Shown: in pieces, positions 4,417 to 46,460 of the stretch
How the letters are laid out: every line of letters starts with the position of its first letter
Numbering within the stretch: position 1 is the stretch's first letter
From: Prochlorococcus sp. AG-409-J16
GTDB lineage: Bacteria; Cyanobacteriota; Cyanobacteriia; PCC-6307; Cyanobiaceae
Assembly (NCBI GenBank): GCA_003215655.1
Contig: QCKB01000010.1
Span: 1 to 53,903 of the forward strand
Length of the DNA stretch: 53,903 bases
Reading direction: 5' to 3'
Position numbers and translations under genes: made by a program
The notes under the pieces: generated by a model
What the model saw: the letters and a program-made list of their open reading frames with translations, nothing else
Databases searched by the model: none
Told to the model about the DNA's origin: nothing

Positions 4417-4450
4417 TTGATAATGTTTGACAAGAAAGTCAAACTGACTG

Positions 4451-6322: not shown

Positions 6323-6377
6323 ATTAAGCTTGGCTCGCTATCTAAAGAATTAGTTAAATTTAGCGGCTAAATAAAAA

Positions 6378-6401: not shown

Positions 6402-6407
6402 TAAAAA

Positions 6408-6451
6408 GTTTGTCTAAAGTTTGTCTAAAGTTTGTCTAAAGTTTGTCTGAA
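6408..6451 (+). repeat. Four tandem 11-base repeats
   Basis: GTTTGTCTAAA three times plus GTTTGTCTGAA, directly after the post-pilin hairpin. Other spacers have a single GTTTGAC or GTTTGAATAAA here. The following 6452-6904 carries the standard upstream module with the rpsD-like box near 6493-6517; no gene is supported there. Confidence 0.9.
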
Positions 6452-6904
6452 TTGACAAACTTTCACTGAAAACCCTTGGTATGACTGGCCGTCTATACCT
6501 TACGTGAGTAGTACTCTACGTCGCTGAGATCGATTGATATGACTAGGTGACAACGGTGAAATCAGGGTTTGAATAAAGTTTGAATGATTTGAAAGTGCCA
6601 TTTTCAACTTTCAAGAAAACCAAGGCTGGCATTGGCTTTTCTCTTGATTCCATATAGCTAGAAAATTTCAGTAATCCCTCCTTTTTCTTTCGAGATGAAT
6701 GGAATGGAGGGTATGGGGGATAACGATCGAAAGCCTTTTCAGGGCTATTTGACTCACAGTTTTGGCTCAATTCCCACTGGACACGTTGTCCAGTGATGAA
6801 ACCCCTTTGTTGGACTGGGTTCTCGATTCGGCAGGTGGGAAATATGTCGCTTTCACCCTTGAAATCTTGTTGAAAGAGTGCTGCGTGATCAAACTGAAGA
6901 AAGA

Positions 6905-28486: not shown

Positions 28487-28855
28487 TTAATCATATAATT
28501 TGAATTTTATAGATTTAATTATTAGATAAATAAATGCTCTTAGCTATTATGTAAATAATTTAATGGCTAATAATTAACGTTCCCAGATTAATTTTGCTTG
28601 TAATAGATATCGTTTCCATATAATAGCACTTCAATGGAATCGATATCTTGAAGTTATTAGTATCTTATGCTTGTACAAACCAATCAATCGAAGTTATCTT
28701 AGAAATATATAGTTCTCTTAAATTAATATGATAGGTCAGATCTAATCTATCTTTTATTGCGTAATCTTGAAGAAAGGCTTAAGGAAGCATGTTTTCTAGC
28801 TTGTCTAATCGAATATGAAGAAGTATTAGCATATAGGGATTAACGGTGTTTGTTT

Positions 28856-30235
28856 ATGACTCATGGTATCTCTTCTGACTTGCTTCAAAATCAAACATTC
28901 ATAAATCACACTAATAATAACTTAGCTGGAACAGAGACACTTACTTACTATATTCATGATGTGAGTAACTATTTTTACTCTGTAGGTGATGGTTATGCAA
29001 ATACTTACTACCATACAGCTACTGAGGAATCTTATATAGAGTCTGTCTTTTCCTCTATTGATCCAATTATAGATTTAGATTTTGAAAGAGTATATTCAGA
29101 TAATGGTTCCGATATAGATATTTATTGTCTTAGTTCTCATACATCTTGGGATTATGGGGTTGTTGGTCAGGTATGGGATCAGGGATGGGGGCAATATTCT
29201 TGGTGGGATGTTGGTTGGAAATATACAGGAAATTGGCAAAATGATAGGAATACAATAGTTCATGAGATTGGGCACGCTTTAGGTCTGTCGCATCCAGATA
29301 ATTCAGGTTTTAATCCAAATTATGATTCCTCAGATACAGTAATGTCATATAATCAAGGGCCTAGTGGCTGGAGTACAGCATGGACCGAATCAGATAAGAA
29401 TACACTTATTGAAATCTGGGGAGTAGAAGATGATAATGTTGTTCCAACAACTACAACATATAGTTATAATTCCTCTACATCAGTTACTTCAATAGTTCAA
29501 AATTGGTTTAGCTACTCTGCCTCTAATCAACAAACAGATGTTAACTCTTCAAATCTGAGCATTTCAACTATTAGTTGGTCAGACACAATTTCAATAAATC
29601 GAGTAATTAGAGCATCAGATGCAGGTGGATTGGTACAAGCTATGCAAGCAAATACAGCAACAAATAGAAATGCAGACCCAAAAGAAGGCTCGATAATCTT
29701 AGGTGGTAATGCCAACGACACTATTAGAGGACTTGCTTCTTGGGATGTTTTGGATGGGAGTGGGGGTAATGACTTAATACATGGAGGCAATGGAAAGGAT
29801 GTTATTACAGGCTCAACCGGTGAGGATGAACTACATGGAGATTTTGGATGGAACACTTATAGATCTGAAAAGGATGGCTATAAAGATTTAATTGCAATTA
29901 AGTCAGATCAATTTCTTTCTAATTGGATGTATGGGAAAGCCGGGAATAGTCCTAATGGAGAGAAAGCCGATTTTATTGAAGGATTAGATACTATCGATCA
30001 AATTAAGATTATTGGCGTTATGGACTCTGATTTAACTTATGCCAGCACCACCCATCGAGGAGTAGCTGGCATTGGTATTTATGCAGCAGGAACTTTAGAA
30101 GCCTTATATACAGCAGGTGACCTAAGTATTTCTCAACTGAGTTCTATGACATCTGGAGATTCATCGACAAGGGCTATGAACAATCAAGTTTGGAGTTATT
30201 GGGGGTCAGACTCTATACCTGATTTATTATCTTAA
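28856..30235 (+). CDS. Secreted zinc metalloprotease with calcium-binding repeats (serralysin-like)
   Basis: 459 residues from ATG 28856. Zinc site TIVHEIGHALGLSHPD, HExxHxxGxxH near residues 136-146, and a Met-turn-like DTVMSYN about 20 residues later, as in M10/metzincins. Near 275-325 there are hemolysin-type repeats: GGNANDTIRG, DGSGGNDLIHGGNGKD. There is no Sec signal peptide, fitting type I secretion via a C-terminal signal. Number of repeats is low. No type I exporter gene is nearby. Upstream 28487-28855 is AT-rich and holds nothing I can name. Confidence 0.88.
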   Translation: MTHGISSDLLQNQTFINHTNNNLAGTETLTYYIHDVSNYFYSVGDGYANTYYHTATEESYIESVFSSIDPIIDLDFERVYSDNGSDIDIYCLSSHTSWDYGVVGQVWDQGWGQYSWWDVGWKYTGNWQNDRNTIVHEIGHALGLSHPDNSGFNPNYDSSDTVMSYNQGPSGWSTAWTESDKNTLIEIWGVEDDNVVPTTTTYSYNSSTSVTSIVQNWFSYSASNQQTDVNSSNLSISTISWSDTISINRVIRASDAGGLVQAMQANTATNRNADPKEGSIILGGNANDTIRGLASWDVLDGSGGNDLIHGGNGKDVITGSTGEDELHGDFGWNTYRSEKDGYKDLIAIKSDQFLSNWMYGKAGNSPNGEKADFIEGLDTIDQIKIIGVMDSDLTYASTTHRGVAGIGIYAAGTLEALYTAGDLSISQLSSMTSGDSSTRAMNNQVWSYWGSDSIPDLLS

Positions 30236-30261
30236 ATTCAATACTATAGACATTTAGATTC

Positions 30262-30846
30262 TCATTTTATATTAACCGGCCAACTGCCTATATAAGAGTA
30301 AAAACTTTGCTCTTCATTTGTTTTATCTATGTTAAAGGCATTTAGTTGATAAATTTGCTTTTCAAGCTTTTGATTTATTTTAATGCTTAAAAGATAGTCT
30401 CTTTCGTTCTCCAAATCCTTTAAAGGATCAATTTTTATTAGATACTTATTTTTAATAATCTCTATATTCGCCTTTAACTCTTCAGAACAGATTGACCCGG
30501 TTTTGGATTTTAAATTTTTGATCACGCAAAACCTTAAGTATTTAGGGTCCTTTGATATGTTTAGATAGTATGGGAAATATATTTTTAGATTATTAATATT
30601 TTCTATACGTTCTTTTTTTAGAATCAATAAATTCATAGTGGTTTCCGAATTGTTATTATTTTTTTCTATAGTATAACTTAGCTTTTTGAATATCTTACTA
30701 TTTTCTTTAGTCGTGCTTGAATTATCTATTCCCTTTAAGTCGATAACACTACAAGCTGATAAGAAGATTGATGATAGGAATAAATTTATAAGTACAGGGA
30801 TAGTTTTGTTAAATCTTTTACGTCTTAAAATGTATCTGATTTTCAT
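30262..30846 (-). CDS. Putative lipoprotein
   Basis: 194 residues. Basic start, hydrophobic segment and lipobox LFLSSIFLSAC with the lipidation Cys near residue 32. The mature part is lysine- and asparagine-rich with 'FPYYLNISKDPKYLRFCVIK' and 'YLIKIDPLKDL', reminiscent of beta-rich secreted domains but not identifiable. Convergent with the metalloprotease gene, 26 bases apart. Confidence 0.65.
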   Translation of the reverse strand: MKIRYILRRKRFNKTIPVLINLFLSSIFLSACSVIDLKGIDNSSTTKENSKIFKKLSYTIEKNNNNSETTMNLLILKKERIENINNLKIYFPYYLNISKDPKYLRFCVIKNLKSKTGSICSEELKANIEIIKNKYLIKIDPLKDLENERDYLLSIKINQKLEKQIYQLNAFNIDKTNEEQSFYSYIGSWPVNIK

Positions 30847-30984
30847 GTTGAGCTTGCCTGAGGTTTTCCTGGATTTTAATCAGCATATAATATTTTGCTT
30901 TACTTTTTAATTTTATGAGATTCCAACTATCAAAGATCTCCAACTATGTACAAAAAATATGTTGTCTATTCTATCTCTCATTAT

Positions 30985-31194
30985 TTAATCCTGAGAATTC
31001 ATTAAGTAAAGAACTTCTAGCTCTTGCATTGATTCTGCAACCTTCCTCCTTAAAAAGATCAATGTTTTACTGTCCATATTTGATAAAGAAATCATCTCTT
31101 CAGATTGCTTGATCGCATGTTCAAGATTCTTGATTTTTAATTCTCTGATCTCCTTGTGTTTCTTGCACTGATCTAGTGTGTATGAGTCAATCAT
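30985..31194 (-). CDS. Small coiled-coil protein
   Basis: 69 residues of charged helix (ELKIKNLEHAIKQSEEMISL, then FLRRKVAESMQELEVLY). Its ATG overlaps the stop of the 38-residue gene upstream by four bases (ATGA), so it is the last gene of a three-gene operon with 31191 and 31310. Function unknown. Confidence 0.6.
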   Translation of the reverse strand: MIDSYTLDQCKKHKEIRELKIKNLEHAIKQSEEMISLSNMDSKTLIFLRRKVAESMQELEVLYLMNSQD

Positions 31195-31307
31195 CTTCTA
31201 TTACGATTCTGGGTGAAAATATCAGTAGTCAAGGCATTGAGAACTAAAAACAGAAGAGTCAATCCAATTATTGGGAGGAATATAAATAACGTATCTGAAT
31301 AATTCAT
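31191..31307 (-). CDS. 38-residue membrane peptide
   Basis: MNYSDTLFIFLPIIGLTLLF followed by VLNALTTDIFTQNRNRR: one long hydrophobic helix and a basic tail. It lies two bases after the gene at 31310 and overlaps the next by four, which is strong operon evidence for such a short frame. Possibly a small subunit of a membrane complex; unknown. Confidence 0.6.
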   Translation of the reverse strand: MNYSDTLFIFLPIIGLTLLFLVLNALTTDIFTQNRNRR

Positions 31308-31309
31308 TA

Positions 31310-31510
31310 CTAAAGCCTTGGAAGCTCTGGTGGTTGATTCTTTTTAAGCCTTCTGTATTCAGAATGAAGTGAACCTAGAAGCCAAGCCTCCTTCATGGTC
31401 GTTGCACCTTCATCGAGTAGTCGTACTTCCTCAATTGATAGAGTCCCTTTAAGTATTTTAAATTCTTCGCGCCATAAGGTTCCATCAGCTTCTTTCCAAT
31501 TGATACTCAT
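31310..31510 (-). CDS. Small hypothetical protein
   Basis: 66 residues, MSINWKEADGTLWREEFKIL with a helical, charged remainder and the end PPELPRL. First gene of the 31510-30985 operon. No known domain. Confidence 0.6.
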   Translation of the reverse strand: MSINWKEADGTLWREEFKILKGTLSIEEVRLLDEGATTMKEAWLLGSLHSEYRRLKKNQPPELPRL

Positions 31511-31825
31511 ACCTTAGTTCCCTCTTTCATTTCTCAAAAGATTTCCTAATAATGAACAATAACAATCTTTGACGCAATAAGAAATTTCTCTTATATCGCT
31601 TTTAGCGTTATAGGTATTGCGTACTCATCTCGAAGATTTATAAGTACGACTTTCTCTTTTCTCAAATCGATTGTGATGCAAGGGTTTTATGCTTCTGTAA
31701 CTCTTGTGCCTGGAGTTAATAAGACTTGTTTTCTGTATCTGTCCGTCACAATTTTCTAGCATTTACTCATGAACCAATTGGATATCATTTCAATTACTTC
31801 CAAAAGTACCTATTTAGGAGTAGAA

Positions 31826-31894
31826 CAGGACTACGACACTCCTCACACAAGTTTGTCGTTATGGGTGCTACTCGATGAGGGCACCTTTTTTTTT
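31826..31894 (+). ncRNA. Yfr1-motif small RNA with terminator (copy 1)
   Basis: Contains the exact 11-mer ACTCCTCACAC (31838-31848), which is the ultraconserved unpaired motif of the cyanobacterial RNA Yfr1. It could sit in a loop closed by CGACA (31834-31838) and TGTCG (31854-31858). A terminator follows: GGTGC-tactcgatgagg-... GCACC (31864-31885) and nine T. Length near 65 bases fits Yfr1 size. Unlike known Yfr1 it recurs in this window (39452). Transcription is inferred; a short frame across it on the plus strand is not a gene. 31511-31825 shows nothing else. Confidence 0.6.
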
Positions 31895-32029
31895 AACTTG
31901 CGAATAGCAGCTCTGCGTATAAATACCCATGACCGCGGCCTTAGGCTCTCTCGGATTTGGAAACTAGTAAACACTCGCTCTAAATTTTTAAGAGAACCTG
32001 CGGTTTAGAATATTTTATTAGCCTTAAAG

Positions 32030-32195
32030 CCTTTCAGTTCTTCGGGTACACGCCTCACTCATGAGAGCTGGACGGATGAATTTTCATTCACGGAAATAAG
32101 GCAAGCACTTCCATTAGACCTCCTTACCCTTATTCCGATTTTGTTGGTCGCCCAATCTTCAACCTCTGGGATTTATAGAAAAAAAGAGGGTTAAA
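32030..32195 (+). other. Start-less open stretch with inverted repeat
   Basis: An open frame from 32010 to about 32195 without any usable start codon reads ...HESWTDEFSFTEIRQALPL and continues hydrophobic to IYRKKEG. Within it CGGAAATAAGG and CCTTACCCTTATTCCG form an imperfect stem. It could be a broken small gene or a structured RNA; I cannot decide. Confidence 0.3.
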
Positions 32196-32255
32196 CCTTT
32201 TTAATTACTTAACCAGAGCACTCAATTAGTTATTATTTGAATTTATATATTCGTT

Positions 32256-32435
32256 TTAAACTCTTTTTGACAACAGTTTGAAAGCCCAGTACCCCAATAA
32301 GGCAATTATTACCCAATGGATAACTGTTCTAATCACCCAAAGAGAAAGCATAAGTACAAGAGCAGAAAGGACAACTCGTTTAGTGAGTGCCTTGGCTTCA
32401 TTAGTCATGAGTTCCCAGCGAGGGAGTAAAGACAT
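32256..32435 (-). CDS. Small membrane protein of a repeated island family (copy 1)
   Basis: 59 residues, MSLLPRWELMTNEAKALTKR then VVLSALVLMLSLWVIRTVIH and a second helix ending FKLLSKRV. Close homologues occur at 37777 and (shortened) 44957, on the opposite strand, which confirms coding and fixes the start at ATG 32435 rather than 32447. Two-helix membrane hairpin; function unknown. Confidence 0.75.
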   Translation of the reverse strand: MSLLPRWELMTNEAKALTKRVVLSALVLMLSLWVIRTVIHWVIIALLGYWAFKLLSKRV

Positions 32436-32717
32436 TTTTGACCCCATAAACCTTATACAGTTGTAACTGATTTATATTGATAAAGGCTTCATGTAGGTGT
32501 AGAAAAGATTATTGACACTCTTTACAGAAGATATTTTCTATGCATCCACTTTTATAAGTCAGTTGTTTCTTAAGACTTAGTCATTAGTATTTTCCTTCCA
32601 TAGGGCATTTAGGAGAATAGCAAAAAACCTAGAGGAAGTCTTCTTTAATCAAGTCTTTCATTCGGATCCAAGGAAAACCCCAATAGCATTTTTCTTTTCA
32701 ATTTCTGCAAAAGGACC

Positions 32718-32780
32718 CATAGAGTAGTAGAACAGAGGAATGCCTCTCCTCACAGTTTTAGAGCACCGCAAAGTTTCTCA
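32718..32780 (+). repeat. Degenerate Yfr1-motif module
   Basis: 'gtagtagaacagaggaatg' followed by CTCTCCTCACAG resembles the start of the RNA modules at 31826 and 39452 (agtagaacag...ACTCCTCAC), but the terminator is not preserved. It lies directly before the methyltransferase-like gene at 32790. The rest of 32436-32717 shows nothing I can name. Confidence 0.35.
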
Positions 32781-32789
32781 ATCAGCCAG

Positions 32790-33815
32790 ATGGAAAAAGA
32801 AACTAAGGACTTTTTAGAATTTATTGATAGAAAATTATCAACAGAATTCATATCTATTCAGGACTGGAAATCTTATTTAGAAAATTTACCTATTATTTAT
32901 CAGCAAGACATATCATTTCGATTACTCTTTAATTGGCATTATGACCTAAAATACTCTTGGGGAGAAGCAGCATCCAAAAATCCAAATCATAATTTAGAGA
33001 ACCCTTTGTTCTCTAAGCAAATTGAAATTATTGATAGGTTCTCCCATTCGTTGAACTCTAACTATCAAGTCAGAGAGTTAATTTATTTTCATGCAAGAGT
33101 TAATTTGAAAGGTAAAAAACTTTTAGAAGTAGGTGGAGTAAGTCCAAATCAACTTTTGTTTGATTTCTTAGGAGTATATGAATATACTAACATTGAATCG
33201 CCTGATTATATTAATGAAGAAGATGGAGTCAATTATTCAGACAAGTTTAAACAACACGATAGAAAAAAAACTATCTTCTGTAATGCAGAAGAGCTAAATT
33301 CAAAATTAGAAAAAGAATCTCAAGATTTAATTTTCTCTGTTGCTTGCTTTGAACATATATATGATTTAGACATGGCACTTCATTCTTGTTGGGAATGTCT
33401 TAGTAATAATTCATATCTATATTCCTATTTTGCGCCTATTTATTCTCAATTAGATCAAGGTGATCATGGCGTAATCCCTGAGCATAAATCATTTAAAGAA
33501 AAACCGATTGGCCTACATTTACTTTCACAATCAGATCAGCGAAAAAAGTTGATAGACGCAGGTATAACAAATCCAAAGGAAATTCAAAGTTTTCTGGGAA
33601 ATGTAAATTTTAATAGGATCCCTAATCGTCTGCATTATGAAGATTATGAGAGAATTTTGACTGAGTCACCTTTCTGGGTAATAGAATTAAAGCGATTAGA
33701 TTGGCTTAATATATTTAAAAAATATTCCCATCAAATCAAAGAGTTAAGGCAGTCAAACCCATCAGTAGGAAATGTAATGACAATGGGTTTTAGGACATTA
33801 TTATTTAAAATGTAA
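32790..33815 (+). CDS. SAM methyltransferase-like protein (paralog pair, copy 1)
   Basis: 341 residues. Rossmann signs: KKLLEVGGVSPNQLLFDFLG (loop I region), NIESPDYIN (acidic end of beta 2), and DLIFSVACFEHIYDLDMALH, the beta 4/helix element of Methyltransf_11-type enzymes. Specific parts shared with the copy at 36538: 'FAPIYSQLDQGDHGVIPEH' and 'RIPNRLHYEDYERILTESPF'. Probable cytoplasmic enzyme modifying a sugar, peptide or lipid precursor; substrate unknown. No TPR part. Confidence 0.7.
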   Translation: MEKETKDFLEFIDRKLSTEFISIQDWKSYLENLPIIYQQDISFRLLFNWHYDLKYSWGEAASKNPNHNLENPLFSKQIEIIDRFSHSLNSNYQVRELIYFHARVNLKGKKLLEVGGVSPNQLLFDFLGVYEYTNIESPDYINEEDGVNYSDKFKQHDRKKTIFCNAEELNSKLEKESQDLIFSVACFEHIYDLDMALHSCWECLSNNSYLYSYFAPIYSQLDQGDHGVIPEHKSFKEKPIGLHLLSQSDQRKKLIDAGITNPKEIQSFLGNVNFNRIPNRLHYEDYERILTESPFWVIELKRLDWLNIFKKYSHQIKELRQSNPSVGNVMTMGFRTLLFKM

Positions 33816-34016
33816 TTTCATTATGGACATAGTTATGTAAATTTCGTTATCAAGGAATATTTATAGTGATAAGAAGAATTCCTATCATAATCTCCACTTT
33901 TATACTTTGTTGACCCTAGAGCAATAGAATTCTTATCAGCATTTGATTCTCTCAACAAGTATTACTGGCTACAAGAAAAGCACTATATTTTATCTAATTG
34001 GTTGACAGGAAGGACT

Positions 34017-34052
34017 AAAAAAGGGAGCTGCTCGATGAAGGCGCCCTTTTTT
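34017..34052 (+). terminator. Rho-independent terminator
   Basis: AAAAAAGGGagc-tgctcgatgaag-gcgCCCTTTTTT: A/G-rich arm, loop containing CTCGATGA, C/T-rich arm ending in six T. The loop is the same as in the Yfr1-motif modules (ctactcgatgagg), so this is their 3' half without the 11-mer. It ends transcripts before the TPR gene at 34114. 33816-34016 otherwise shows nothing. Confidence 0.75.
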
Positions 34053-34113
34053 AGGTAGTTATTTTAACTAGAGGGACTAGATTGCTGGTCTGGATGTTTG
34101 CCAGTAATCCTTA

Positions 34114-36144
34114 ATGAAAGGAGACAATACTGCTAGGGATCTCTTTGCTTTAGCGATAGAAAAGTATCAGAAAGGGAAGTTTCCAGAAGCAATCGAAGCA
34201 TTCAATCAATCACTTGTACTAAAAGAAGATTGGGAGACCTACCAAGGACTTGGATTAGCGCTGTATCTCACATGGCAATACCAGCATGCAGTCGATGCAT
34301 TCGACAAATCACTTGTACTAAAAGAAGATTGGCACACCTACCAAGCACTTGGATGGGCGCTATATCACACAAAGCAATATCCAAGAGCAATAGACGCATT
34401 CGATAAATCACTAGTACTAAAAAAAGATTGGCAGACCTACCAAGGACTTGGATTAGCGCTGCATCTCACAGAGCAATACCAGCATGCCGTCGATGCATTG
34501 AATCAATCACTTGCTCTAAAAGAAGACGGGCAGTCCTACCAAGGCCTTGGATGGGCGCTGTTCAAAATGCAGCAATACCCATCAGCTATAGAAGCATTCA
34601 ATCAATCACTTGAAATGAAAGAACATTGGCAGTCCTACCAGGGACTTGGATTGGCGCTGTTTAACAGGAAGCAATATGAACCAGCAATTGATGCAATATT
34701 AAATTGGTGGAGGTCATCAGGCAGAATTGAAGAACAAGAACTTCTAGCGAAATGCCTTAGGAATGCATTTCATAATAAATATGGTGAACTAAGTAATTTC
34801 CTGTGTGCTTCTATCGCTGTTAATTCAGAAGATTTGAATAAATTGCTTGTAGCAAAAGAAGACAAGATGATTAATGAACTACACAAAAGTATAAAACAAA
34901 ATAAATTACCAAACCAAATCCTTAGAGTTTTTTCATTTGTGCTACAACAACAAGCAACAAGTAATACAACGATATCCAAAAATCACGAAAAAATACTTTC
35001 TAATTTTCGAACAGATAATGCTAATTTGATTCCTAGATTCGAAAAAAAACGAAAAGAAATTCTTGTTTTAGGAGTGAGTCATTCTATGCTTTTTGATGGA
35101 ATACCAGGAGTAAATGTTTTTACTTTAGGTGCAGGAACGATGTACAGCATCGGCAATCCAAACTCAAGAACAGGTCACTATAGAAGGATTAAATCAATAT
35201 TGATAGATCGAGACCCATCAGAAACAATCTTGGTCTTTAATTTTGGGGAGGTAGATCTTCGAATGCATATCAATAGAATAATCAAAAAAGAGAATAAATC
35301 TCTGCAAGCAATATGTGACGACGTTCTGAAAAGGTATCTTGAGTTTATTGATCAAATCAAGGAAAGAGGTTTCGATGTAATCATAAGCGGACCACACTGT
35401 GGAGGGGGTGATGCATTTACAGCATTCTCAATAACAGCGAGCATTACAGAAAGGAATAATGCATGCGCTTACATGAACGACAAACTTGCATCAGAGTGCA
35501 TGATTAGATCTATACCATTTATAACACTATTTGATCTTGCAGTTGATCAAACTACTTTAATAGAGAATACTTCCCTTTTTGAGGACTACTCTCATTTACT
35601 TAGACCGCCAAATATTATAGGAAAATCTATTCAATCCTTGCTTAAGGAAAGACTAGAACGAGCAATAGTGGAATTGGAATGTAAATCTTGTAAATCTATT
35701 AGATCAAATTACTACGGAAGTGAGATTAAAACTTTTTGTAGAATTCTTATTAGCAACATCCCAGGTTGGAAATCTGGTGCGAAATTTATGCCAAGAAAAG
35801 TGTACCAAAAACCTTCTGAGATTCAAGATCAGCGAATTTATCGAGCGATAATTGAATTACCTTTCCCAGTGCACCCCAAAGAGGTCGCGCTCTCGTTTAA
35901 TAAAAATCGTTTACATGTAAGAACGCATGTCCAGGCAATATTTGAAAATTACAACCCTGCAATTCAACTAAATGACAATGTTATATCTGCATTTAGGCAA
36001 AAAATACGCTGCACTAAAGATCAAAATTGCCATTATTTTCTTGAAAAAGATTCAACAAATAGACAATCACGTTTTTTTGCTATATCAATTTCACAGGCAC
36101 AATTTATTAAACTTAAGTCAATTTCAATAAGCAGATACATTTAA
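34114..36144 (+). CDS. 33-residue TPR array fused to an SGNH-hydrolase-like domain
   Basis: 676 residues. Residues 1-200 hold about six TPR-like units of 33 residues (e.g. AIEAFNQSLVLKEDW...GLGLALY), one residue shorter than normal TPR. After a linker, residues about 315-520 look SGNH/GDSL-like: LGVSHSMLFDGI (nucleophile Ser), LVFNFGEVDLRMHI (GE.D.R block) and DYSHLLRPP (His near the end). A C-terminal part of about 120 residues is unknown. Role inferred: esterase/acyltransferase on a surface polymer with the TPR for docking. The start region aligns with the TPR genes at 39622 and 41353. Confidence 0.7.
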   Translation: MKGDNTARDLFALAIEKYQKGKFPEAIEAFNQSLVLKEDWETYQGLGLALYLTWQYQHAVDAFDKSLVLKEDWHTYQALGWALYHTKQYPRAIDAFDKSLVLKKDWQTYQGLGLALHLTEQYQHAVDALNQSLALKEDGQSYQGLGWALFKMQQYPSAIEAFNQSLEMKEHWQSYQGLGLALFNRKQYEPAIDAILNWWRSSGRIEEQELLAKCLRNAFHNKYGELSNFLCASIAVNSEDLNKLLVAKEDKMINELHKSIKQNKLPNQILRVFSFVLQQQATSNTTISKNHEKILSNFRTDNANLIPRFEKKRKEILVLGVSHSMLFDGIPGVNVFTLGAGTMYSIGNPNSRTGHYRRIKSILIDRDPSETILVFNFGEVDLRMHINRIIKKENKSLQAICDDVLKRYLEFIDQIKERGFDVIISGPHCGGGDAFTAFSITASITERNNACAYMNDKLASECMIRSIPFITLFDLAVDQTTLIENTSLFEDYSHLLRPPNIIGKSIQSLLKERLERAIVELECKSCKSIRSNYYGSEIKTFCRILISNIPGWKSGAKFMPRKVYQKPSEIQDQRIYRAIIELPFPVHPKEVALSFNKNRLHVRTHVQAIFENYNPAIQLNDNVISAFRQKIRCTKDQNCHYFLEKDSTNRQSRFFAISISQAQFIKLKSISISRYI

Positions 36145-36217
36145 GTATTTCATTGAATCAAGGTGTTTTAGTCAATGGGAAAAGAAGAGATTGCTGTAGA
36201 TTGGGGGATTTCTGAGG

Positions 36218-36365
36218 TTGTCTAAAGACAGCTATATATCCATTGAATATTGATCCCAGCGATCTAGAAGTGAATGAAGAGTCAGAGCAGGAATGGTTGA
36301 AAAAATAAGTGCTTGACTCAAATGGCGTGATCGAGATACCCCGACCTTCTGAGAATTAATTTCAG
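36218..36365 (+). repeat. Island spacer module with peptide remnant (copy 1, decayed)
   Basis: Encodes PLNIDPSDLEVNEESEQEWLKK followed by stop, then a decayed version of the GC hairpin. Copies at 37608 and 44788 keep the same frame and stop (PLN.DPSDLELNQESE...KK). It looks like the 3' end of a former gene carried along as spacer. Confidence 0.6.
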
Positions 36366-36391
36366 GTCTTCCCAAATGTTCCATGAACAAG

Positions 36392-36460
36392 TAGACCAGA
36401 GCCACGACACTTCTGACAATAGTGTGTCGCTATGGGCGCCACTCGAAGAGAATGCTTTTA
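36392..36460 (+). repeat. Degenerate Yfr1-motif module
   Basis: 'agtagaccagagccACGACAC' then 'ttctgacaatagtgtGTCGC' then 'tatgggcgccactcgaagag': same layout as the RNA modules at 31826 and 39452, but the 11-mer is lost and the terminator arms no longer pair. It precedes the methyltransferase-like gene at 36538. Confidence 0.5.
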
Positions 36461-36537
36461 TCTGCTTGCAAAAAAAAGTTTATTGGTAGATAATAAAGAG
36501 TTAGAAGATTCGAGTATTTTAATTAAGTGAAAAGTCA

Positions 36538-37566
36538 ATGAAAGAAGAAACTTCGGATTTTCTAGATTTCATAAAAAAGGATCTTAACCCTCCTTTTATT
36601 CATTTAGATTCATATAATTATTATTTAAGAAAATTACCCTACATATATAACAATGACATCACCTTTAGGTTGCTCTTTGATTGGCATTTTAAACTCGATA
36701 ATCGTCATGGTTCTGCATGGTATCGACCAAGCGGAACTCATTTAAAAGATGAACTATTCGAACAACAAGTTGCCTTAATAAATGGTTGGGGTAAAAATAT
36801 GTATAATAGTTCTTATCAATACAGAGAGTTAATTCTTTTTCATGCTAGAGTTGATCTTCAAAACAAATGCCTTTTAGAGATTGGTGGTTCGACTCATAAT
36901 GATCTCATTTTTGAGACATTAAGAGTTCATCAATATATTAATATTGAGTCACCAGACTATATTGATGCTTCAGGAAATTCAACATATTCAGAGAAACATT
37001 TATCGCACCCGAACAGAAAAACTATATTCACAAATGCAGAAAAAATTAATTCATTCTTGGAAAGCAAATCTATAGACCATATCTTTTCTGTTGCTTGCTT
37101 TGAACATATATATGACCTGGAGGCTGCCTTAATTGGTAGCTACAATTGCTTAAAAGAACGTGGTACCCTTTATTCTTATTTTGCCCCAATTTATTCTTAC
37201 TTAGAAGATGGTGATCATGGAGTTATACCGGAACATAAGTTATTTGCAAATAAACCTATTGGATTGCACCTTCTTTCAAACATTGATCAGCGCAAGGAAT
37301 TGGTGGATGCTGGAATTTGCAATCCAACTGAGATTCAGGATGTCCTAGGCAGGATAAACTTTGACAGAATACCTAATAGACTCAAATATGAGGAATATGA
37401 AAAGATACTAACTGAGTCTCCTTTTCGTGTTATTGATCTAGAACGTTTGGATAATTTAAATCTTTCAAAAAAATATCCAAAAGTGTTTGATCAAGTTAGA
37501 AGATCTAACAAGAATGTTGGCAATATGATGACAGGAGGATTTAGAGTATTTCTGATAAAAGAATGA
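36538..37566 (+). CDS. SAM methyltransferase-like protein (paralog pair, copy 2)
   Basis: 342 residues, colinear with 32790: both start M(K/E)xET(S/K)DFL(D/E)FI and end MTxGFRxxL. Shows CLLEIGGSTHNDLIFETL, HIFSVACFEHIYDLEAAL and FAPIYSYLEDGDHGVIPEH. Both copies are intact, so both are probably in use. Whether they act on the same substrate is unknown. It lies between the TPR-SGNH gene and the spacer at 37602. Confidence 0.7.
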   Translation: MKEETSDFLDFIKKDLNPPFIHLDSYNYYLRKLPYIYNNDITFRLLFDWHFKLDNRHGSAWYRPSGTHLKDELFEQQVALINGWGKNMYNSSYQYRELILFHARVDLQNKCLLEIGGSTHNDLIFETLRVHQYINIESPDYIDASGNSTYSEKHLSHPNRKTIFTNAEKINSFLESKSIDHIFSVACFEHIYDLEAALIGSYNCLKERGTLYSYFAPIYSYLEDGDHGVIPEHKLFANKPIGLHLLSNIDQRKELVDAGICNPTEIQDVLGRINFDRIPNRLKYEEYEKILTESPFRVIDLERLDNLNLSKKYPKVFDQVRRSNKNVGNMMTGGFRVFLIKE

Positions 37567-37601
37567 GTTCGGTCCCTTTCTTAGTTTTTTGAAAAAAGGT
37601 T

Positions 37602-37740
37602 TTTTCACCATTGAATCTTGACCCCAGCGATCTAGAACTGAATCAGGAGTCAGAGCACGAACGGTCTAAAAAATAAGTGATTGTCTGAAAGGGCGGGATC
37701 GAAATACCCCGCCCTTCTTAATGGCTTACTGAAAGCAAAG
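37602..37740 (+). repeat. Island spacer module with peptide remnant and GC hairpin (copy 2)
   Basis: 37608-37676 encodes PLNLDPSDLELNQESEHE plus RSKK and stop. Then a 9-base-pair stem AAGGGCGGG-atcgaaata-CCCGCCCTT (37689-37716) followed by CTTAA. Over 120 bases nearly identical to 44782-44905. Both are followed by a copy of the small membrane-protein gene. The hairpin resembles a terminator without a full U-run. Confidence 0.75.
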
Positions 37741-37776
37741 AAATCCACTAAAAGAAAGGGCAATGAACGCGAATCC

Positions 37777-38076
37777 ATGCTTCTAAACCCTCGATGGGAA
37801 TACATGACTGATGTCGCGAAGGCAATGACCAAGCGGGTTGTACTTTCTGCCTTTGTTCTCCTCCTTTTCCTTTGGGGAATCAGAGCACTAATCCCTTGGG
37901 TAATAGTTACTTTGTTGGGTTGCTGGGTATTCAAGTGGTTATCGAAAAGTAATTTAGTTAGCTGCCTCAATCCAACGCAACTTGACACCGAACAACCAAG
38001 CAAGTACATTTGTTCTATAGGACATTTCTCACGCACAATCCGTCCTAATCAAATGGGCACCTGCATTTACCAGTGA
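37777..38076 (+). CDS. Small membrane protein of a repeated island family (copy 2)
   Basis: The conserved part is MLLNPRWEYMTDVAKAMTKR...FKWLSKS (58 residues, two helices), as in 32256 and 44957. Here the frame reads on for about 41 residues (NLVSCLNPTQLDTEQPSKYI...) into sequence that at 41150 is non-coding spacer, so the tail is probably a fusion caused by loss of the native stop. Start ATG 37777 by homology. Confidence 0.7.
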   Translation: MLLNPRWEYMTDVAKAMTKRVVLSAFVLLLFLWGIRALIPWVIVTLLGCWVFKWLSKSNLVSCLNPTQLDTEQPSKYICSIGHFSRTIRPNQMGTCIYQ

Positions 38077-38091
38077 GCGAGGTGCCTTTTT
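38056..38091 (+). terminator. Rho-independent terminator (spacer type 2)
   Basis: GGCACCT-gcatttaccagtgagcg-AGGTGCC followed by five T: a perfect 7-base-pair stem. It closes a 130-base spacer (from about 37960) that recurs at 41150-41288 with 'cctcaatcca' and 'tttgttctatagg' in common; this may be a second small RNA family. Confidence 0.85.
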
Positions 38092-38113
38092 GATGCCTTG
38101 AATCAATGAACGT

Positions 38114-38389
38114 ATGACTAATGAATTTGGAAGACCACTACCAACTTCCTCAGGATGGTTGATACACCCAGAAAGAAAGAGGGTGCTGTTTTTCATTCGT
38201 GATCCCAAGTCCTTGATGAGTATGCCAAAGGTCATTACCCAACTCTGGTATTCCACTGCGGACGGCATACCTACCCGAATCAAAAACACCAGAACGATGG
38301 AACTAGAAGATGCAACCGAAACGTGGAATGTGTTGCTGAGTAATGGTTGGGAGTTGGTTGAGCATCAGATCAATGAGGCTGCTGCTTAA
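38114..38389 (+). CDS. DUF1651-type protein
   Basis: 91 residues: GWLIHPERKRVLFFIRDPKS, then LWYSTADGIPTRIKNTRTM, EDATETWNVLLSNGWELVE. This matches the pattern of the DUF1651 family, found in marine picocyanobacteria and common in their variable islands. No membrane part. Function unknown. Confidence 0.7.
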   Translation: MTNEFGRPLPTSSGWLIHPERKRVLFFIRDPKSLMSMPKVITQLWYSTADGIPTRIKNTRTMELEDATETWNVLLSNGWELVEHQINEAAA

Positions 38390-38422
38390 ATAGGTTTATT
38401 CCAAGGCAACATTTCCTCTGTA

Positions 38423-38818
38423 ATGAACCTCAACTGCATTAGAAATACTTGTCTTAGTTTGTTATCACTTTTAATTATTTCTTATCCCCTAAAGATAGAT
38501 GCATTGTCACATGATTGGGTTGCAGTTCCAAAAAGTCAGTTTGGAGAGCAATTATGGGATAAAAACAGTGTTCAAAAAAACAAAGATGGGTCTCTAAGAG
38601 TATTCAGTAAATTTATCCCTAAAAGTACTACCAAAATTACACAAGATATCCTTTACACAATGGATATCAATTGTTCAGAAAACTCCTTCAGAGATGTTGC
38701 TATCGGTGCAAAGGAATTTAATGAGTTTAAAAACAAAGATTCTGAATGGAAAGACCCGAATGAGGACAAACTTATCCTGCGTGTAATCGATCAAGTATGT
38801 ACTTTTGGAAAAAATTAG
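38423..38818 (+). CDS. Small exported protein, surface-adhesin-E-like
   Basis: 131 residues. Signal peptide about 27 residues (LSLLSLLIISYPLKIDALSH), then a beta-rich domain: DWVAVPKSQFGEQLWDKNSVQKNKDGSLRVF... with Cys in 'DINCSENSF' and 'DQVCTFGKN' that could pair. The W...G..LWDKNSV..DG pattern is that of small periplasmic/surface-adhesin-E-type domains. Assignment tentative. Confidence 0.6.
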   Translation: MNLNCIRNTCLSLLSLLIISYPLKIDALSHDWVAVPKSQFGEQLWDKNSVQKNKDGSLRVFSKFIPKSTTKITQDILYTMDINCSENSFRDVAIGAKEFNEFKNKDSEWKDPNEDKLILRVIDQVCTFGKN

Positions 38819-38880
38819 TATATTGCTTTAATAATTAAGGATGTCTTTCTATTATCTTTTGAACTTTTCTCTAGCCCTAA

Positions 38881-39078
38881 AAAAGGACCTGCTGATCCTT
38901 TTTGGAACTAACTAAGAGTAAAAATCTCGCAAATTCACCAAATTGCTCTAATACTGAGGCGTTCTGGAACTTCTTGGAACGTCATGGTACATACAAAAAA
39001 CGGAGACGGTGTCCGTTAAGTAAGGACTAGATGCTCTTTCCTGGAAGCAACTTCGGGTTGTTTTGTGTTCTATTTTCT
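38881..39078 (+). repeat. att-like repeat, order A-core-B (left copy)
   Basis: Segment A (38881-39000, 'ggacctgctgatcctttttggaac' to 'acgtcatggtac') is about 80% like 46087-46208, which directly follows the tRNA-Ser 3' end. The core ACAAAAAACGGAGAcGGTG (38993-39011) matches 46201-46219, including the last tRNA bases, with one mismatch. Segment B (39011-39078, 'gtccgttaagtaaggactag', 'cttcgggtt') matches 46001-46070. The order is A-core-B here, but B-A-core at the tRNA: a hallmark of tandem integration remnants. Confidence 0.7.
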
Positions 39079-39156
39079 AGAATCCTTATTTTCCCAAGCA
39101 CCATATTTGCATGCAATCGATTGCACCGGGTACCCAATATAGGATCTCTAAAATAT

Positions 39157-39179
39157 AAAAAATAGGGGTGTTAACCCCT
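39157..39179 (-). terminator. Terminator of the AlpA-like pseudogene
   Basis: Read on the minus strand: AGGGGT-taac-ACCCCT then a TATTTTTT run. The stem has six pairs. It lies about 16 bases after the original stop of the AlpA-like gene. Confidence 0.7.
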
Positions 39180-39194
39180 TCCTTTCTCTACTCG

Positions 39195-39371
39195 TTATTG
39201 CATCCATTCTTGGATGTCTGATTCCAACCAGATAACAAGATTAGATCCTAATGGAATTTATTCAGGGAATTTACCTTCATTAATTCTGTCGTAGATAGTT
39301 GTTCTACTCATTCCTGTTCTATCAACTATTTCTGGAATGCGCAGAAAGCGTTCTCTGATGTCGATTTTCAT
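39195..39371 (-). pseudogene. AlpA-like HTH regulator with in-frame stop
   Basis: Reads MKIDIRERFLRIPEIVDRTG then MSRTTIYDRINEGKFPE, TAA (39258-39260), IPLGSNLVIWLESDIQEWMQ, stop. Both halves lie in one frame and together give a complete AlpA/excisionase-type winged HTH (consensus: LR..EV...TG.SR.TIY..I..G.FP...LG...V.W...EI..W). The nonsense codon cuts it after the DNA-recognition part. Such genes accompany prophages and integrative elements and control integrase genes. Supports a decayed mobile element here. Confidence 0.75.
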
Positions 39372-39449
39372 GGCTTCTAAAAAAGTAAAAGAAACTCCCA
39401 TCGCATCGTGCTTTTCCAGTTCACCAAAAGGTCTCATGAAGGATTGGAA

Positions 39450-39515
39450 CAGAACTACGACACTCCTCACACAAGTTTGTCGATATGGGTGCTACTCGAT
39501 GAGGGCACCTTTTTA
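39450..39515 (+). ncRNA. Yfr1-motif small RNA with terminator (copy 2)
   Basis: Nearly the same 65 bases as at 31826: AACTACG, ACTCCTCACAC (39462-39472), closing TGTCG, then GGTGC-tactcgatgagg-GCACC and TTTTT. It ends 107 bases before the TPR-methyltransferase gene at 39622. The identity in motif, stem and terminator while flanks differ suggests selection or recent copying. It runs antisense to the 5' flank of the AlpA-like pseudogene. Transcription inferred. Confidence 0.6.
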
Positions 39516-39621
39516 TGTGCTTCGTATCAACCTATTTTGACTAGGTTGACTATTTTGAATAGATAGATTATGAGTTCTTTTCATCATTCTCTAGTGACTT
39601 TCCGGGTTGGTAGTAATTTTT

Positions 39622-41109
39622 ATGAAACAACTCAATACTTCTAGAGATTTTTTTGGTTTAGCGATAGAAAAGTTACAGAGCAAAAAGTTTCAATCAGCAA
39701 TAGAAGCATTCAATAAATCCCTTGCTCTTCATGAGGATTGGGAGTCTTACAAAGGACTAGGATCGGCACTGTTCAATACACAGCAATACCAATCAGCAAT
39801 AGAAGCATTCAATAAATCTCTTGCACTAAAAGAAGACTGGCATTCTTACCAAAGACTTGGATCGTCGCTGTTCAATACACAGCAATACCAATCAGCAATA
39901 GAAGCATTCAATAAATCTCTTGCACTAAAAGAAGACTGGCATTCTTACCAAAGACTTGGATCGGCGCTGTTCAATACACAGCAATACCAATCAGCAATAG
40001 AAGCATTCAATAAATCTCTTGCACTAAAAGAAGACTGGCATTCTTACCAAAGACTTGGATCGTCGCTGTTCAATACACAGCAATACCAATCAGCAATAGA
40101 AGCATTCAATAAATCTCTTGCACTAAAAGAAGACTGGCATTCTTACCTAGGCCTTGGTTGGTCGCTGATAAAAACACAGCAACACAAGGAAGGACTAGAA
40201 CAATTTTATAGATCGTATGAATGTGAAGGTGACATAAATTGGAGTGTTTTACATGATCTTGGGAGTCAACTAATTAAGCAAAATCATCCTGACTTAGCAA
40301 TCGATTTCTTTCAAGGACTAATGAAAAAATACCCAGATGAACTTCTTACTGTTTGTAGTTTTGTCAGTATGGTCAAGAAGTTAAATCTGGTCTCAGAATA
40401 CCAGGATCTTTTTACCCAGTTAGAAATTAACCGATCCTGGGATTTAGTCGAGTTTTATGAAAAAAATATTAAAAACAAATTATTTTACTTTAAAGATGCA
40501 AATAGTATGCGATTTGCCAAAGACAGATTAGTTAATGCTAAATATGTAAATAATCGCAAGGAATTATGGTATGAAGCAATAAGAAATATGGAGGTAAATG
40601 ATGGATTAATTATGGAGTTTGGTGTTCGGAATGGCTATTCGATATCTTTTATTGCCAACATCCTTTCTCATGAAGAAGTGCATGGTTTTGATTCTTTCGA
40701 AGGACTTCCTGAAGAGTGGAGTTCAAAAACTGCCAAACCTAATGAACCGAGGGGGGGGTTGTCACGTGGAGGACATCTGCCTGCTGTACCAAAGAATGTT
40801 CGTTTACATAAAGGTTGGTTTGAAAATACGCTTCCATTATTTCTTCGATCGTACCCTGACAAGAATTCAAGTCTAATTCATATAGATTCTGATATCTATT
40901 CTTCTGCTAAGACTGTTCTATTCTTACTTGCAAAGACCATTATTCCTGGAACAATAATTATCTTTGATGAATATTATAACTATTCAGGATGGGAAGATCA
41001 TGAATTCAAGGCGTTTCAAGAATTTGTAAAAGAATACGCTTTAACTTATGAATACATTTCATATACACATGAACAAGTATCCATTCGTATCCTAAGTAAA
41101 AATAAATAG
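39622..41109 (+). CDS. 33-residue TPR array fused to a TylF-like methyltransferase
   Basis: 495 residues from ATG 39622 (MKQLNTSRDFFGLAIEKLQ). Residues about 20-190 are 33-residue TPR units, four of them almost identical (AIEAFNKSLALKEDWHSYQR). After a helical linker, the catalytic domain from about 320: LIMEFGVRNGYSISFIANIL (SAM loop), VHGFDSFEGLPEEW, SLIHIDSDIYSSAKTVL and IIIFDEYYNYSGWEDHE, as in TylF/macrocin O-methyltransferase-type enzymes acting on sugars. Same adaptor as 34114 and 41353 with another enzyme attached. Confidence 0.75.
   Translation: MKQLNTSRDFFGLAIEKLQSKKFQSAIEAFNKSLALHEDWESYKGLGSALFNTQQYQSAIEAFNKSLALKEDWHSYQRLGSSLFNTQQYQSAIEAFNKSLALKEDWHSYQRLGSALFNTQQYQSAIEAFNKSLALKEDWHSYQRLGSSLFNTQQYQSAIEAFNKSLALKEDWHSYLGLGWSLIKTQQHKEGLEQFYRSYECEGDINWSVLHDLGSQLIKQNHPDLAIDFFQGLMKKYPDELLTVCSFVSMVKKLNLVSEYQDLFTQLEINRSWDLVEFYEKNIKNKLFYFKDANSMRFAKDRLVNAKYVNNRKELWYEAIRNMEVNDGLIMEFGVRNGYSISFIANILSHEEVHGFDSFEGLPEEWSSKTAKPNEPRGGLSRGGHLPAVPKNVRLHKGWFENTLPLFLRSYPDKNSSLIHIDSDIYSSAKTVLFLLAKTIIPGTIIIFDEYYNYSGWEDHEFKAFQEFVKEYALTYEYISYTHEQVSIRILSKNK
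39691..40185 (+). repeat. Five 99-base tandem repeats (TPR units)
   Basis: Units start at 39691, 39790, 39889, 39988 and 40087, each 99 bases = 33 codons. Units 2-5 differ by only a few bases (e.g. tcgtcg versus tcggcg), so the array expanded recently and unit number should vary between strains. Confidence 0.95.
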
Positions 41110-41252
41110 AAAGATTATTATGGAGAAATATCTGCTTATAACAAAGCAATTGAGTTGATTGCCTCAATCCAGCGCGACTTGACGCCGAATAAGTCTATGA
41201 GTGCATTTGTTCTATAGGGCAAGTTCTTCGCGCAATCCGCCCTAACCAAATG

Positions 41253-41288
41253 GGCACCTGCATTTACCAGTGAGCAAGGTGCCTTTTT
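41253..41288 (+). terminator. Rho-independent terminator (spacer type 2)
   Basis: GGCACCT-gcatttaccagtgagca-AGGTGCC and five T, the same element as at 38056 with its whole 130-base leader (41155-41252). The sequence after it, 'atgtgcttgcctatcaac', matches that after the RNA module at 39450 ('atgtgcttcgtatcaacc'). Confidence 0.85.
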
Positions 41289-41352
41289 ATGTGCTTGCCT
41301 ATCAACAAAACAGATAAAGTAGACTGTCTAGTCTTATCGCCAGTAATTCTTG

Positions 41353-42951
41353 GTGAATGAATCAAATGCTGATAAGGATTTTTTTGCTCTAGGGACAGCA
41401 AAGTATAAAAGTGGAGATTATGAGGGGGCAATAAATTTTTATAGGAAATCAATCGCAACTAAGGAAGATTGGTATTCATACCACTGCCTAGCATGGGCAT
41501 TGTTTAGGCAAAATAACATGAAAGAATCGAGAATCATATTCGAAAAATCAATTTCTCTAAATGAATACTGGAATTCATATAATGGTCTTGGATGGGCGCT
41601 ATTTAATAGCACTCTTTTCTCAAAAGCAATAGATGCTTTTCGCAAATCTCTCAAACTTAAGGAAAACATCAATGCATTTCGAGGTCTTGGATGGTCGTTA
41701 TTTAGAACAAAGCAGTATTCTGAAGCAATAGTTGCCTTTAGAAAGACACTTCGATATGAAGGTAGTGATGAGAATGAAATACTTTCTATTTATAGGCAAC
41801 TTGCAGACTCATATGATTTAATTAACAAGAAAAGTAGTTCACTACGCACTTGGAACATATACTTTTCATATTCTGGACTTATAAATAAAATCGATCCTTT
41901 TATAGGATTGGAAAGAACTTACGAGCAGATTGAAAGTAATAAGTTAGAGCAAATAACATATAATTTTCTTGATAATGGATTTGAATTCTCTCCATCCTAT
42001 CAAATAGCAGATGATTCTTCTCTTAAAGAATGGAGACATATTTTATATTTACACATACCAAAATGTGCAGGAACTTCATTTGAGCAACCTTTGCGAATAC
42101 TTAGTAAATTATTATATAAATTGCAACCTAAAGGATTTACAAACGATTTAATTGACAATTATATTGTGCCAGAACCTATAAGATCTAAATATGAGGTTCA
42201 AGTATTACGAAAAAAGATAGAATTTTCCACTCCGAACAAAATTAAAAGCACCTTCATTAGTTGCCATGGCGTATCTTGGAACCCGTTAAGCTCCTCAATA
42301 AGTAAAGCAATAGAAAATGCTCCTAAAGTTCTTGTACTTTCTCGTAATCCAAAACAGAGGTTGTTATCTCAGGTAAGACATGAAGCATTTAACTATGAGT
42401 CAATTGATAAACTTATTGATTACATAGAAGAGAATACTTCAAAAAAGAATTCAGAGTTAAATAATATTATGTACAAGTACATATTTGACGTAGGTCTTAA
42501 TGCAATTGAATCAAAGACTGAACTGGAAAAGAGGCAAATTTTACCTAATGATTTAGACGATATGGCCTTTGTTGACATTTCAGATGTTTCAAGCAAAATG
42601 AAAATAAGGTCTGCTTACTTAAGCGCATCGCGATTGCCGAATGTTTTTCAATATTCTAAACTAAATGATTCATTGTCAAGAGGAAAAAAATTAGTTAAAC
42701 AGTTGAATGAAGACGAAATTAAATATGCATTCAACCGATGTATTGAATTAGGTTTTGTTGAAAAGGACGAAGCAATTGATTTTGATTGTCTTCATAAACG
42801 AACTCTTAGTAAAATAAATAACTTCTCTTTTGATAATGAACATATTTCTAATATCCACCCCCTCACATTTATCCTTTCTAAGGAATCAATAGGTTCTATA
42901 GTTCCAACTAAAATGTTCCTGGAAAATCCATCTATGTTTTATGAGAACTAA
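41353..42951 (+). CDS. 33-residue TPR array fused to a sulfotransferase-like domain
   Basis: 532 residues. GTG 41353 is chosen because the DNA around it ('gccagtaattcttg') aligns with that before ATG 34114. Residues about 10-135 are TPR units of 33 residues. Then ILYLHIPKCAGTSFEQP (near 231-247, P-loop-like) and VLVLSRNPKQRLLSQ (near 327-341, 3'-phosphate motif), as in sulfotransferases. The C-terminal 'NIHPLTFILSKESI' pattern is shared with the gene at 2593, so the two are distant paralogs with different TPR types. Substrate unknown. Confidence 0.72.
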   Translation: MNESNADKDFFALGTAKYKSGDYEGAINFYRKSIATKEDWYSYHCLAWALFRQNNMKESRIIFEKSISLNEYWNSYNGLGWALFNSTLFSKAIDAFRKSLKLKENINAFRGLGWSLFRTKQYSEAIVAFRKTLRYEGSDENEILSIYRQLADSYDLINKKSSSLRTWNIYFSYSGLINKIDPFIGLERTYEQIESNKLEQITYNFLDNGFEFSPSYQIADDSSLKEWRHILYLHIPKCAGTSFEQPLRILSKLLYKLQPKGFTNDLIDNYIVPEPIRSKYEVQVLRKKIEFSTPNKIKSTFISCHGVSWNPLSSSISKAIENAPKVLVLSRNPKQRLLSQVRHEAFNYESIDKLIDYIEENTSKKNSELNNIMYKYIFDVGLNAIESKTELEKRQILPNDLDDMAFVDISDVSSKMKIRSAYLSASRLPNVFQYSKLNDSLSRGKKLVKQLNEDEIKYAFNRCIELGFVEKDEAIDFDCLHKRTLSKINNFSFDNEHISNIHPLTFILSKESIGSIVPTKMFLENPSMFYEN

Positions 42952-44781: not shown

Positions 44782-44925
44782 ATCACCATTGAATCTTGCT
44801 CCCAGCGATCTAGAACTAAATCAGGAGTCAGAGCACGAACGGTCTAAAAAATAAGTGCTTGACTCAAAGGGCGGGATCGAAATACCCCGCCCTTCTTAAT
44901 GCCTTACTGAAATCCCTTAAATCCA
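44782..44925 (+). repeat. Island spacer module with peptide remnant and GC hairpin (copy 3)
   Basis: PLNLAPSDLELNQESEHE plus RSKK and stop, then the AAGGGCGGG / CCCGCCCTT hairpin (44867-44894), nearly identical to 37602-37740. Again followed directly by a copy of the small membrane protein gene. Confidence 0.75.
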
Positions 44926-44956
44926 ATAAAACGGAAGAGAAACAAACTCTGAATCC

Positions 44957-45097
44957 ATGTCTCTAATCCCTCGATGGGAATACATGACTGAAGACGCGAA
45001 GGCAATGACCAAGAGGGTTGTTCTTTCTGCGTTAGTTCTTCTGCTTTCCCTGTGGGTCATCAGAGCACTCATCCCTTGGGTAATCGGTAATCGCTAA
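44957..45097 (+). CDS. Small membrane protein of a repeated island family (copy 3, shortened)
   Basis: 46 residues, MSLIPRWEYMTEDAKAMTKR then VVLSALVLLLSLWVIRALIP, WVIGNR and stop. Compared with 37777 the second helix and FKWLSK end are cut by a small rearrangement (cggtaatcgctaa); the lost end is still recognisable as 'gaattcaagtggttatcg' out of frame at 45121. Could still make a one-helix peptide or be a pseudogene. Confidence 0.6.
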   Translation: MSLIPRWEYMTEDAKAMTKRVVLSALVLLLSLWVIRALIPWVIGNR

Positions 45098-46000: not shown

Positions 46001-46208
46001 GTCCGTTAGGTAGGGACTACATGGTCCTTCCTGGAACCAACTTCGGGTTATTTTTTGGTCTTTTCCCTAACATTTTCCCTAACACCAAAATGGGACCTAC
46101 TGATCCTTTCTGGAACAAACTAATAGTAATAATCTCCTGAATTCGCCAAATTGCAGCAATAGTGGGACGTTCTGGTACTTCCTGGAACGTCATGGTACTC
46201 ACAAAAAA
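46001..46208 (+). repeat. att-like repeat, order B-A (right copy, at tRNA-Ser)
   Basis: B (46001-46070) and A (46087-46208) match the left copy at 38881-39078 in the opposite order, and A runs directly into the tRNA 3' end. The open frame on the minus strand through the tRNA is a shadow of this repeat. Confidence 0.7.
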
Positions 46209-46293
46209 CGGAGAGGGTGGGATTCGAACCCACGGACGGTTTCCCGTCAAACGATTTCGAGTCGTTCGCTTTCGACCACTCAGCCACCTCTCC
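46209..46293 (-). tRNA. tRNA-Ser (anticodon CGA)
   Basis: 85 bases. Acceptor GGAGAGG/CCTCTCC, anticodon arm AACGA-CTCGAAA-TCGTT with anticodon CGA, long variable arm GACGG-GAAA-CCGTC as in class II tRNAs, and T-loop GGTTCGAATCC. CCA is not encoded; TTTTTT follows the discriminator G. Its 3' end is part of the direct-repeat core (46201-46219), so it is the probable integration target of the island. Confidence 0.97.
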
Positions 46294-46460
46294 AGTTATA
46301 AATAGACAAATATAATTTTAACCATGTATTTACAACATTTACAAATTATGGAGTAAAGACTTATATATGTAGTACTTGATAATTTAATAATATATACCTC
46401 TCTTGCATTAGGCGAAATCTAAAGAAAACGAAATTTACTTTTCCTCTGAAAATCTTAATA

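Follow-up and report, generated by a model that had tools for sequence, protein, structure and literature searches.

Yfr10-type small RNA modules in the mobile DNA of a tRNA-Ser-associated island of Prochlorococcus

Integrative elements of Prochlorococcus that are directed to tRNA genes, tycheposons among them, use the 3′ end of a tRNA as their target, accrete there, carry cargo genes and lie in genomic islands. Multicopy RNAs sharing a unadecanucleotide, one of them island-located, were described from strain MED4 in 2008 (PMC2518516), and that paper and PMC6778093 present the Yfr10 type as multicopy and island-located; MED4 Yfr10 is reported as an expressed RNA of ~78 nt which increases in darkness. 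In PMC6778093 the Yfr1 motif lies between two stems, whereas that of Yfr10 lies in a loop on a stem; Yfr10 and Yfr2 of MED4 are shown there to interact, and Yfr1 represses a reporter with the PMM1121 5′UTR. A Yfr10-Yfr2 tandem is reported for HL strains including MED4, and Yfr10 is known to occur without synteny and in islands, for which the portions of the two papers at hand give no explanation (PMC6778093, PMC2518516).

The window, which is the whole of contig C10 (53,903 bases) from a genome of 1.84 Mb with a completeness of 99.96%, contains ACTCCTCACAC exactly at 31838-31848 and 39462-39472, and a third genomic copy of the 11-mer lies at C9:29814. The two copies in the window belong to modules with a common stem and terminator, as the preliminary description had stated. 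The modules and their remnants are listed below, with scores from a covariance model built from the modules of relatives together with A and E themselves.

31709-31820, + strand: decayed left arm of an element and promoter, upstream of module A (left-arm alignment)
31826-31890, + strand: module A, predicted intact Yfr10-type sRNA gene (11-mer; 90.4 bits)
32696-32758, + strand: remnant B, promoter-like stretch and partial motif CTCCTCAC (pairwise alignment with A)
34010-34050, + strand: remnant C, terminator hairpin only (25.3 bits, E 3e-4)
36397-36461, + strand: remnant D, decayed module with motif ACTTCTGACAA (44.7 bits, E 6e-9)
39450-39514, + strand: module E, predicted intact Yfr10-type sRNA gene (11-mer; 91.4 bits)

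Searched over the genome at E 0.01, the model found nothing beyond A, E, D and C. The decayed copy and the terminator-only form that had been placed at 36392 and 34017 were thus recovered as D and C, which are followed by a methyltransferase gene starting 77 nt downstream and a TPR gene 64 nt downstream, respectively. The model was without match at 32718, where another decayed module had been proposed, and a structured RNA at this position was rejected. Remnant B has neither hairpin nor terminator, and this was the weakest claim of the set since its similarity to module A is limited to the promoter region and a partial motif. Modules A and E align pairwise over 31788-31890 and 39413-39514, so that the repeated unit comprises promoter and RNA.

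Thirty homologous modules were aligned to set the structure, which consists of a 5-bp stem with a 15-nt motif-containing loop, followed by a 10-bp terminator hairpin. In the alignment 99.6% of the cells are paired and both sides have changed in 7 of the 15 pairs, which none of 500 shuffles reached, and sliding the partners destroys the covariation signal. Two of the five pairs of the motif stem covary, with 100% of the cells paired, although this first stem is biased because a stem pattern had been used to retrieve part of the alignment set; it varies as well in sequences obtained independently of the pattern (e.g. CGAGA/TCTCG). Stem and terminator hence covary across relatives, and the 11-mer does not stand there by chance without conserved structure. 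A near-identical module, detected by DNA similarity in 56 of 400 family genomes, also places the modules beyond chance, and together with the model scores this bears out that they are real, RNA-like and multicopy. The covariance model recognised modules in 74 of 251 genomes and 33 of 59 genera, with up to seven copies, where the weakest matches (E about 0.001-0.01) may include false ones; named relatives with the module are Prochlorococcus. Clusters are common (five in 18 kb in genome G078, four in 23 kb in G020). The 11-mer itself is present in 148 of 151 family genomes, mostly in one to four copies, and in the first 51 genomes it was counted 125 times against 59 for the reversed word. The assemblies are drafts and the loci are related by descent, so that such counts are not independent.

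With the Rfam Yfr1 model (RF01116) a single gene was identified in this genome. It scores 65.4 bits, lies at C9:29794-29850 and is flanked by genes that read as guaB and trxA. The window gave no match to the model above the Rfam gathering cut-off, and 30000-41000 gave none even with E values up to 5 allowed. The modules share the identical 11-mer with Yfr1, which is the one point for the earlier suggestion that they replace it. Since the genome has a normal, intact Yfr1 at guaB-trxA, this suggestion was rejected and is extremely improbable. Yfr1 presents its motif single-stranded between two stems and in one copy at guaB-trxA, and the modules have neither this shape nor this location. Of the earlier interpretation, the RNA-like modules, their mobile setting and porin as a plausible target are therefore retained, while replacement of Yfr1 is given up in view of the gene on C9.

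The modules instead fit the published Yfr10/Yfr12/Yfr18 type, distinct from the resident Yfr1, as judged from sequence and predicted fold. The unadecanucleotide ACUCCUCACAC is exact in A and E and is predicted to be exposed in a loop atop a stem. As in Yfr10, Yfr12 and Yfr18 of MED4, the exact 11-mer in a hairpin loop is combined with a terminator, several copies per genome and an island location, and a Yfr2 partner follows downstream, here in relatives of the strain (PMC2518516, PMC6778093). A Yfr2 homologue downstream of the sRNA, which is reported for HL strains but not as a requirement, is absent from the window copies. The window copies differ from the MED4 RNAs, as portrayed in the relevant passages of the two papers, in standing without adjacent Yfr2, in being partly decayed and in lying in elements that target tRNA-Ser and contain alpA and TPR cargo (PMC2518516, PMC6778093). 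The sRNA is accordingly of a kind already known, and the mobile setting is the new part.

Promoters were read by comparison, since no site usable for the modules emerged from a scan with the sigma-70 consensus. Module A retains the -10 TAGAAC of its relatives, whereas that of module E reads TGGAAC, by which its promoter should be weakened; the -35 TTGACA present in one class of relatives is absent from the window copies. Transcription of the modules is thus a prediction from these comparisons. They could also be non-functional relics of decayed elements, untranscribed or unneeded here because Yfr1 does the work, and the decay of B, C and D, the alpA pseudogene described below and the damaged -10 of E would agree with this. 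We consider it unlikely, as A and E are perfect in motif, stem and terminator (90 bits) beside decayed neighbours and A keeps TAGAAC.

Module E lies in an element of about 39.0-46.2 kb of the window, the parts of which are as follows.

38885-39011, - strand: right arm and tRNA-Ser 3′-end core, end of a neighbouring accreted element (similarity to 46089-46222)
39000-39102, + strand: conserved left end (core and left arm) of the E-carrying element (81% over 97 nt, E 6.5e-22)
39198-39371, - strand: alpA-type excisionase/regulator pseudogene (Phage_AlpA 67 bits)
39607-41109, + strand: cargo, TPR protein with methyltransferase domain (Pfam TPR_2, Methyltransf_24, TylF)
41350-42951, + strand: cargo, TPR protein with sulfotransferase domain (Pfam TPR_2, Sulfotransfer_2)
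46001-46086, + strand: second left-arm copy, few nt before the right arm (91%, E 1.3e-28)
46089-46222, - strand: right arm and att core overlapping the tRNA-Ser 3′ end
46208-46294, - strand: tRNA-Ser (cga), integration target

The 3′ end of tRNA-Ser(cga) is directly repeated at 38960-39011 (52 bp, 90%, E 4e-13), and 38885-39011 matches 46089-46222 over 127 bp at 84% identity. The alpA gene is interrupted by a stop and divergent from module E, an arrangement repeated in five further loci, and the first cargo gene begins 93 nt past the module. The second left arm directly before the right arm means that a deletion or an additional insertion took place in the history of the element, and this copy is perhaps a deletion derivative. 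Pfam recognised no recombinase among the window proteins submitted to it, so the element is non-autonomous or decayed at best and would be mobilised in trans; TTCCCTAGCA repeats, present in both arms, may be recombinase arm sites. Serine recombinase-like proteins were seen by eye near modules of relatives, at L152 763-1548 and, downstream of the module, in L074. The similarity of the region upstream of A to the left arm was reached by none of 300 shuffles (7 of 300 for the outer part alone), and an inner left arm lies at 36343-36385 upstream of remnant D. The decayed left arm of A suggests an island made up of elements accreted in tandem at tRNA-Ser, and the module genes would have come into it with small elements that had used the tRNA-Ser(cga) 3′ end for integration. 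Phage records gave no match to 9 kb of the island, nor did viral contigs to the module and left-arm patterns.

The left end is sharp in other genomes, where unrelated DNA is followed by ACGGAGAGGGTG, the tRNA 3′ end, and then by the conserved left arm. There are 20 such matches, some partial, in 16 of 251 genomes; 12 of them lead to a module in the same orientation, in 11 cases at 62-65 nt from the arm end. The spacing is ~350 nt in the window because the alpA gene intervenes. The relatives with modules at cassette ends are, by our reading of their names and genome sizes, low-light-type Prochlorococcus. Their cassettes measure 0.95-1.5 kb and larger, with L33, an ion channel and TPR proteins among the cargo. 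The minimal element of ~0.95 kb consists of the module and a 65-aa protein that reads, by eye, as ribosomal protein L33, and a minimal element of 1.5 kb has the module, a Yfr2-type RNA and an Ion_trans protein. The L33-like protein is the only recognisable one in the 0.95-kb elements (L164 9905-10880, L086 215-1185, L080 4705-5680), and an L33 gene carried by mobile DNA is unexpected. The Ion_trans protein of 259 aa regularly follows Yfr10(-Yfr2), at L169 8449-9225 and 10 further loci, often beside tRNA-Ser(cga). The elements resemble tycheposons in tRNA 3′-end target, accretion, cargo and island context, but are as small as 0.95 kb and have an sRNA at one end and no recognised recombinase.

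These sequence comparisons point to the module as a part of the conserved left end of an element family integrating at the tRNA-Ser(cga) 3′ end. They support the preliminary description where it put the modules in mobile DNA, for the most part upstream of accessory genes, and its term element-encoded is well supported by the conserved left end, the tRNA-Ser core and the minimal elements. With the RNA gene at the ends of small cassettes beside tRNA-Ser in relatives, it appears that mobile DNA carries a regulator of core physiology along. The fixed spacing to the left end in 11 loci, and a divergent alpA start at 78-93 nt from the module in six, would also suit a module that serves the life cycle of the element, as arm sites of a recombination end or as a regulator of alpA or integrase, and not host genes. 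This is quite improbable, considering that most modules in relatives, including Yfr10-Yfr2 pairs of other strains, lie away from any recognisable left end and that host RNAs offer predicted pairing sites.

About a third of the examined loci have a Yfr2-like sequence ~40-105 nt 3′ of the module, and Rfam identified 11 Cyano-1 (Yfr2-family) genes above cut-off in the 12 loci scanned. The gene downstream shares the strand of the module in 48 of 68 loci (p 0.0009, with loci that are not independent), while the orientation of the upstream gene is balanced, 36 to 36, and the gaps between module and TPR gene cluster at 60-93 nt. The modules might on these grounds be cis-acting expression units, with a promoter and a leaky terminator serving the cargo gene and the sRNA as a by-product or processed leader; a 270-nt Yfr10-Yfr2 precursor described in PMC2518516 implies that read-through occurs in MED4. 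The orientation bias may, however, reflect shared ancestry, the module is constant while the cargo changes, the Yfr2 terminator intervenes between module and ion channel in the Ion_trans elements, and the 11-mer in the loop is invariant in the alignment, the copies of which were chosen by the 11-mer. A unit acting in cis is for these reasons doubtful.

We regard the modules as probably being trans-acting Yfr10-type sRNAs that pair with Yfr2 and porin and were brought by tRNA-Ser elements. The transcript would be ~62 nt long, with a 5-bp stem displaying the CU-rich 11-mer in its loop and an intrinsic terminator after it. Two Yfr2-type genes, on C2 and C11, are present in this genome, and neither adjoins a window copy. 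Both encode RNAs with 5′ ends (GTGTGAGGGGT and TTGTGAGGAGT) complementary to the loop, with a predicted duplex of 10-11 bp. Co-folding with Yfr2a gave -9.8 kcal/mol for A and -10.9 kcal/mol for E, with none of 60 shuffles as good, and with Yfr2b -8.0 and -8.6 kcal/mol, with 4 of 60 as good. The energies for Yfr1 (-14.4 and -12.8) are stronger than those of modules A and E, and D and B co-folded with Yfr2 no better than shuffles. Pairing of the loop could sequester the Yfr2-family RNAs, and the sponge proposed previously is plausible, with Yfr2 as its partner, from the predicted duplexes.

A complete 470-aa porin gene on C11 starts with CGTGTGAGGAACAAATG, where the loop is predicted to pair over 9 nt of the Shine-Dalgarno region. 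A seed search for GTGTGAGGA-N1-14-ATG found two sites only in the genome and none in the reversed control, and the non-porin site is not the start of any ORF reaching 80 aa. Pairing of the loop with GTGTGAGGA-type sites over Shine-Dalgarno regions, as in this porin gene, would block translation. The 9-nt match leaves porin as a plausible predicted target, as had been envisaged, and comes from a single porin 5′ region. A second porin, the C-terminal part of an OprB at 52860-53903 on the - strand, is cut by the contig end without its 5′ region, which is a possible candidate target of Yfr1/Yfr10. Taking the loop complementarity together with the Yfr10-Yfr2 interaction and the Yfr1 repression in MED4, as given in PMC6778093, a trans-acting repressor and Yfr2 antagonist would be expected, and we infer that the modules pair in the cell and repress porin.

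A further, tentative possibility is that tiny tRNA-Ser cassettes with an sRNA, often Yfr10-Yfr2, as a fixed component of the left end join the host Yfr1/Yfr2 network as soon as they arrive and thereby favour the cassette, through porin or metabolic expression, or their own mobility. Carriage on the ends of small integrating cassettes would explain the scattered, multicopy and decaying distribution of Yfr10. If so carried, a regulator of central metabolism and porins would be exchanged horizontally, in a strain-dependent dose, in an abundant photosynthetic organism.

Elsewhere in the island, dispersed repeats consisting of a small-ORF 3′ end and terminator-like hairpins lie between cargo genes (37620-38090, 41200-41290 and 44790-44960), and its left part encodes an RTX-repeat protein with a metallopeptidase-like domain at 28850-30235 (Peptidase_M10, HemolysinCabind). 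At 1068-7450 there are four genes with a type IV pilin-like N-terminal methylation motif (N_methyl), the first and second of which are separated by a TPR gene.
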